From Synergistaceae bacterium (GTDB taxonomy: Bacteria > Synergistota > Synergistia > Synergistales > Synergistaceae): a DNA stretch of 34,328 nt. Position numbers and translations under genes: made by a program. Shown here in pieces: positions 31,351 to 31,943 of this stretch. The stretch lies in NCBI GenBank assembly GCA_031273805.1, contig JAISRE010000047.1:1-34328 (forward strand), in the 5' to 3' direction. Position 1 is the first letter of the stretch. Every line of letters starts with the position of its first letter. Below the pieces are notes generated by a model. The model saw nothing but the letters and a program-made list of their open reading frames with translations, had not been told where the DNA came from and did no database searches.

Positions 31351-31659
31351 TAATCGCACCTCCCTCAAATTTAACCTCATGGCTTCGATGGTTTATTGCT
31401 CCACACGATGGCATTTGGCCTTCAAAAAACATTCTCTATGTTGCGTCAAAAGGGCTAATTTTCACGAAGCCGGACAGAATCAGGGACTATAAGTCTGAAA
31501 ATCCCGGGACCGACAAATTGATGCCCTTGATGGCAGCCGCCGATCGGCACGGCGGCCAGGCCACGCAGCCGCGATTAAAATGAACTGTTTAGAGTTGATA
31601 ATTCATCAATCACGCCTAATGAATGCCGGCCCTCGTGGATAGGCGGTTGAGGGCCAACG

Positions 31660-31668
31660 TGGTATAAT
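31660..31668 (+). promoter_or_regulatory. Extended -10 promoter TGGTATAAT for the putative antisense RNA
   Basis: TG-G-TATAAT; no clear -35. Confidence 0.5.
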
Positions 31669-31674
31669 ACCTCC

Positions 31675-31792
31675 GAGCAAGTTATTTGATCACACCCGCA
31701 ATCTTGAGTATCAGCTCAAGAAAGTGGAGGATCAAAGTCAGTAGAGGGGCAAGGTCAATCACCCAGTCGAGGGGGCCTTGCTCCTCTTTTTT
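31675..31792 (+). ncRNA. Putative antisense RNA (type I antitoxin-like), about 118 nt
   Basis: Extended -10 promoter at its 5' end, internal stem CTTGAG/CTCAAG (31703-31720), terminator agaggggcaaggtc...ggccttgctcctctttttt (31743-31792). Antisense to most of the 47-aa ORF. Confidence 0.5.
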
Positions 31793-31825
31793 GTTGCTCG
31801 GGAGGTTGTCTCCGTCTTGCGACAT
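31682..31825 (-). CDS. Putative 47-aa hydrophobic type I toxin-like peptide
   Basis: MSQDGDNLPSNKKEEQGPLDWVIDLAPLLTLILHFLELILKIAGVIK*; SD GGGGGAGGTGATTCGATG; C-terminal TM-type helix. Confidence 0.6.
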   Translation of the reverse strand: MSQDGDNLPSNKKEEQGPLDWVIDLAPLLTLILHFLELILKIAGVIK

Positions 31826-31943
31826 CGAATCACCTCCCCCAGAGGGAAGAACCCAAAAATCCCCGACACCCTACTTCTGTCGGCGGTCCGCCAAGGACAT
31901 TCTATCACTATACGGCAAAATGCACAATAACAAATGAAAAAGG

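Follow-up and report, generated by a model that had tools for sequence, protein, structure and literature searches.

What is a short reading frame for a membrane peptide doing opposite an apparently self-contained antisense RNA gene, and do the two belong together? The question is raised by a locus in the 34,328-nt stretch of Synergistaceae DNA analyzed here (the window), where the minus strand carries a 47-aa ORF (MSQDGDNLPSNKKEEQGPLDWVIDLAPLLTLILHFLELILKIAGVIK; 31682..31825, 47 codons, ATG at 31825) for a proposed toxin. An initial annotation had listed promoter, leader, hairpin, and terminator elements on the two strands, and a check of the sequence places every one of them where it had been reported. 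Our comparative analysis indicates that the 47-aa ORF, its leader, and the antisense gene are a single conserved module, the elements of which are found again, with covariation, in dozens of paralogues and orthologues; no second copy was found elsewhere in the 34,328 nt of the window. We consider it likely that the locus is a type I toxin-antitoxin-like system, in which a minus-strand membrane peptide, probably toxic and expressed from an mRNA locked at its ends, is set against an antisense RNA.

The membrane peptide

The reading frame is maintained, under purifying selection that is only moderate. Internal stops interrupt the ORF frame (sense frame 0) in just 3 of 27 aligned copies and sense frames 1 and 2 in 26 of 27; there are 27 intact homologous ORFs, and the median pairwise dN/dS is 0.51. 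Every family member has a single C-terminal hydrophobic segment (consensus LAPLLxLILQxLELILKLLGVI), judged from its sequence to be a helix whose polar face is narrow, and across the window's family the net charge of the peptide ranges from -5 to +11, that of the window's peptide being -3. A small hydrophobic peptide ORF under selection, as type I loci have, is present at this locus. Searches of Pfam, NCBIfam, PHROGs, PADLOC, and PDB sequences gave no homology to known toxins, and homology to TisB was not supported (hhalign probability 4%, no Pfam hit). The peptide is probably toxic to its own cell, a view that we derive from the architecture of the locus together with the copy number, tandem arrays, and broken copies of the family described below.

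The antisense RNA gene

The opposite strand carries a promoter with an extended -10 box, then a hairpin and a terminator, which between them delimit a predicted, compact antisense RNA facing most of the ORF. The promoter (31640..31668, plus strand) is conserved in relatives and consists in the window of an extended -10 box that matches the full consensus (TGGTATAAT, 31660-31668) and a degenerate -35 box, TAGGCG (31640-31645). By a strict pattern, the antisense -10 is found in 22 of 35 copies, and 16 copies have a -35 of TTGACG, TTGGCG, or TCGACG at a spacing of 16-18 nt. Relatives carry TTGACG or TTGGCG at the position of the window's TAGGCG, within the loop of the mRNA's 3' hairpin; the loop of the window carries an insertion, and the -35 there has decayed. 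A generic sigma-70 scan listed neither promoter of the locus, the -35 boxes of the window being weak; what is conserved is the extended -10 boxes.

The predicted antisense RNA is about 118 nt long (31675..31792, plus strand). Its fold reaches z = -6.3 against dinucleotide shuffles, and R1, a covariance model of the antisense unit, scores the window's unit at 132.9 bits; no Rfam family matches the RNAs of the locus at gathering score. The transcript contains a hairpin, CTTGAG-TATCAG-CTCAAG (31703..31720), and ends in an intrinsic terminator that lies inside the peptide ORF (31743..31792), with a 14-bp stem (31743-31756/31774-31787) followed by T6 up to 31792, the arms of which encode EEQG and LAPL of the peptide. 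We aligned the antisense unit (alignment A5) over three helices, namely the terminator (helix 1), the antisense hairpin (helix 2), and the 3'-terminal hairpin of the mRNA (helix 3). The terminator has 94.9% of cells paired, with changes on both sides in 7 of 12 pairs, and the antisense hairpin has 92.3% paired; jointly the three helices reach 90.8%. Cells with changes on both sides number 91, where shuffles give 33.5, and the covariation score is 0.408, compared with 0.206 for shuffles. At the sequence level, then, the locus has an independent antisense RNA gene overlapping the putative toxin gene, conserved and covarying. A coding role for the antisense strand was rejected, because each of its frames is interrupted in between 13 and 25 of the 27 copies.

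The initial annotation had described the peptide as fully opposed by the antisense. The predicted RNA is complementary to codons 12-47, the stop codon, and part of the 3' UTR, so that the description holds for most of the ORF and fails for the leader, the Shine-Dalgarno sequence (SD), and the start codon. Since it stops short of the SD, the antisense probably acts through a duplex over the ORF, by RNase III cleavage or a translation block, rather than by covering the ribosome-binding site. Of the earlier proposal that the antisense RNA represses the toxin, the antisense side is borne out by a conserved and covarying promoter, hairpin, and terminator, and repression and toxicity themselves stay at the level of inference.

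Leader and 3' end of the peptide mRNA

The peptide mRNA is predicted to start from a promoter TTGTGC-N17-TAGAAT (31899..31927, minus strand) with an extended -10 TGATAGAAT (31907-31899), its -10 hexamer at 31904-31899 lying 74 nt upstream of the ORF. An extended -10 of the form TGnTAnAAT stands in the same place in 22 of 35 copies by the strict pattern. Two hairpins follow in the leader: a stem CCGACA/TGTCGG (31863..31883, arms 31883-31878/31868-31863) and an SD-sequestering hairpin CTTCCCT/GGGGAGG (31833..31849), in which CTTCCC(T) at 31849-31843 faces (G)GGGAGG at 31839-31833. The leader stem has 97.8% of cells paired in 30 copies, with changes on both sides in 5 of 5 pairs, and the SD hairpin has 87.1% paired, figures that are favored by a leader alignment that had been fitted to the structure. 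This comparison of sequences gives good support to the suggestion that translation is limited by the leader.

At its other end, the predicted mRNA closes with a hairpin GGCCCTC-AACCGCCTATCCAC-GAGGGCC (31628..31655, minus strand), which has 83.7% of cells paired and changes on both sides in 6 of 8 pairs and which lacks a U tract in the window. The fold of the whole predicted mRNA has z = -3.0 against dinucleotide shuffles.

Pairing between the two ends of the mRNA

Leader stem, SD hairpin, and 3'-terminal hairpin appear to be joined in the mRNA by a fourth element, a long-distance pairing between the 5' end and the loop of the 3' hairpin. The 5'-terminal nucleotides are complementary to this loop, and in the window the predicted 5' terminus GGCGG (31888..31892, minus strand) matches CCGCC in the loop (31642..31646). 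Neither this pairing nor the 3'-terminal hairpin nor the size of the family had figured in the initial annotation. The predicted start is conserved as G[A/G]CGG and the loop as CCGTC, and most copies with an altered start carry a matching loop, as do the window and four others with GGCGG/CCGCC; the covarying pairs are GACGG/CCGTC, GGCGG/CCGCC, GATGG/CCATC, and GACAG/CTGTC, the last seen twice, in two genera. Among 27 intact Synergistaceae copies, the pairing is perfectly Watson-Crick in 22 and fully standard in 25, compared with a mean of 10.9 perfect copies in shuffles, of which 0 in 20,000 were as good as observed. On a tree built without both motifs, the compensatory changes fall at several separate places; a tree-based pair test, with few independent contrasts, gave about 3.7 of 6 in the same direction and about 0 in the opposite (median p 0.125).

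Thermodynamic folding does not display the 5'-3' pairing in nearly all copies, because the pairing beside the 3' hairpin is a pseudoknot, which folding programs miss, and it is therefore covariation by itself that carries the case for it. The pairing excludes the SD, which is masked by its local hairpin instead. In the window's family, the hexamer of the antisense -35 usually falls within the very loop that pairs with the 5' end, and so this element would have to serve both the antisense promoter and the RNA lock.

Distribution in Synergistaceae and a sister family

A peptide search of 61 related genomes found copies in the window's genus and family, and a profile search across the window's family gave matches in 20 of 53 genomes. 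With R1, we find at least 46 strong matches in Synergistaceae, up to 7 per genome and some in tandem. Two relatives were identified as contigs of Synergistaceae bacterium MAGs. The window's own genome has a second copy of the module on another contig (G000:C17:20400-20950; L031, L097), in which the peptide is frameshifted, and two weak R1 remnants on a third (C129); several copies elsewhere (e.g. L044, L048, L050) are without parts of the module. A lone leader lies just upstream of the frameshifted copy and is perhaps the remnant of a tandem array. Two genomes (G023 and G061; L100-L104) hold a sub-family with longer peptides of about 50 aa ending in LLxLLLRLLELALKYLR, which retains the leader and the GACGG/CCGTC elements. 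No match was found to plasmids, phages, or viral contigs.

Weak R1 matches in another family (f3) of the same order led to loci of equal layout that encode a different peptide, rich in lysine and arginine. A search with its profile gives about 150 matches, spread over 47 genomes and frequently arranged in tandem; the subset that was inspected has the same architecture. Any relationship between the two peptide profiles is distant at best (hhalign probability 58%). The sister loci have 5'/3' pairs of their own (GAGGGG/CCCCTC, AGGAAGC/GCTTCCT, CAGAGGAAGC/GCTTCCTCTG, GAGAGAG/CTCTCTC, and GAGGAAGT/ACTTCCTC), and a pairing of at least 6 bp at a fixed place occurs in 31 of 34 copies, compared with a maximum of 23 when the segments were swapped 5,000 times. 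All 34 copies have an extended -10 on the antisense strand. The antisense promoter of these sister loci appears to be located beyond the mRNA 3' hairpin; in the window's family it sits between the stop codon and that hairpin, usually with its -35 in the loop. Sister modules also stand in tandem, two to five or more together, at a spacing of about 330-370 nt (G105:C147:6096-7556; G155:C2:29426-30679; L088; L091), and their 5'/3' pairing sequences are individually matched where checked (L088, L091, and part of G105).

With somewhat more reserve than for the locus itself, we favor the hypothesis of an order-wide type I superfamily in Synergistota, of about 200 copies in two families, defined by the pseudoknot between the 5' end and the 3' loop. 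Its pairing would have been rewritten repeatedly with complementarity kept, and in one branch the loop would also hold the antisense -35, linking transcription of the antitoxin to the lock.

Comparison with known type I systems

In txpA/RatA and bsrG/SR4 of Bacillus, the two transcripts run toward each other and overlap by their 3' ends; the antisense is complementary to the 3' portion of the toxin mRNA and brings about its decay by RNase III. The locus described here shares the overlap with the 3' part and differs in that the antisense terminator lies inside the ORF, so that the antisense RNA is nested in the mRNA. In hok/sok, a second reading frame, mok, overlaps hok, and the leader is the target of Sok. 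Our module resembles hok/sok in antisense RNA control and in an mRNA apparently silenced by pairing of its two ends (aapA has been compared with hok in this respect; PMC6733600), whereas its antisense lies over the ORF and 3' UTR, and it has no Rfam match.

Close parallels are seen with aapA/IsoA of Helicobacter and other Epsilonproteobacteria, a multi-copy system with a short membrane peptide and a cis antisense RNA, in which nascent hairpins with CU-rich elements mask the SD and, before its 3' trimming, the primary transcript is kept inactive by a long-distance interaction between its 5' and 3' ends (PMC6733600). There the long-distance interaction sequesters the SD directly, whereas here the 5' end would form a pseudoknot with the 3'-hairpin loop, which in the window's family usually also contains the antisense -35; nor is there peptide similarity in the family libraries, AapA being set apart by these library searches rather than by direct comparison. 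The peptide also recalls TisB of tisB/istR-1 in its amphipathic helix and equal polar spacing (Q-x2-D/E-x3-K), with homology undetectable. Like msoT1/msoA1 of Microcystis, our locus is a type I system proposed outside the classical phyla from the layout of promoter, terminator, and antisense; that locus, which was tested in E. coli, belongs to a different phylum, Cyanobacteria (PMC12390103).

We found no type I systems reported for Synergistetes or Synergistaceae in the open-licence literature. To our knowledge, no type I toxin-antitoxin-like family has been described before in the Synergistes phylum, and the gene family had no name. Type I systems were previously known only in Proteobacteria, Firmicutes, and Tenericutes, with one cyanobacterial locus added in 2025, and this narrow range may reflect search bias (PMC12390103). 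What we rate as new are the unrelated peptides, the phylum, and a distinct form of mRNA lock; the type I logic itself is already known. On our reading, Synergistota joins the range, through at least 46 strong matches in one of its families and the roughly 150 peptide matches in a second. This lends support to the idea that type I systems go unnoticed because their toxins, tiny as they are, bear no relation to one another, even though the RNA architecture keeps recurring.

Proposed mechanism and alternative explanations

The minus strand would give rise to a short mRNA for a membrane-inserting peptide. By analogy with aapA/IsoA, local hairpins may mask the SD during synthesis, and the SD hairpin and end-to-end pairing would then keep the full-length mRNA silent and stable. 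Trimming or refolding of the 3' end could free the locked mRNA, with which the antisense RNA would pair over the ORF, leading to degradation or a translation block. Were antisense synthesis to cease, the peptide would build up and harm the membrane. Counting against a type I reading are the weak -35 boxes of the window, the mRNA 3' hairpin without a U tract, and a net charge from -5 to +11, unlike many cationic type I toxins.

Could the same RNA control instead serve a small membrane protein that is not a toxin, such as a stress-induced regulator of a membrane complex? We regard this as unlikely, if worth keeping in mind: the peptide is often acidic (net -3 in the window) and its purifying selection just moderate, as this explanation would have it, yet high copy number, tandem arrays, patchy presence from one related genome to the next, and broken copies are typical of toxin-antitoxin systems and unusual for a housekeeping regulator, and silencing in so many layers implies a cost to leaky expression. 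We give much less credence to a non-autonomous, MITE-like mobile repeat in which the ORF is incidental and inverted TTGACGG/CCGTCAA ends mimic RNA pairing. The dispersed and tandem copies of about 270 nt would suit such an element, as would paired segments that are inverted repeats near its ends; however, conservation reaches past these segments, to the -10 upstream and the hairpin arms around the loop, the ORF frame is kept, and the termini of one element would be uniform, whereas here each copy has its own matching pair. That a chance ORF faces an unrelated antisense small RNA gene, as the failure of the generic promoter scan at both sites might hint, is already refuted by the comparative data, which show all parts of the module recurring together, with covariation and with the frame conserved, and we give it practically no weight.

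If the type I toxin-antitoxin-like reading is right, an end-to-end lock rewritten many times amounts to a natural experiment on how toxin mRNAs stay silent. One closed genome of the window's family (G025, 3.59 Mb) carries a copy, which suggests that this could be tested in a culturable relative.

Other features of the window

At 29469-29523 the tetranucleotide CTTG is repeated about 13 times, possibly as a phase-variable or mobile simple repeat; the motif occurs on six contigs of the window's genome, the window's contig included. Beside the module, a 24-nt direct repeat with a AAAAGGTTGAYAACAGGAAAA core occurs at 31938-31961 and 32208-32231, the two copies being 92% alike. Each stands just upstream of a small ORF, one zinc-ribbon-like (at 31998) and the other encoding an HTH_17 protein (at 32248), and the repeats are possibly a shared regulatory site.
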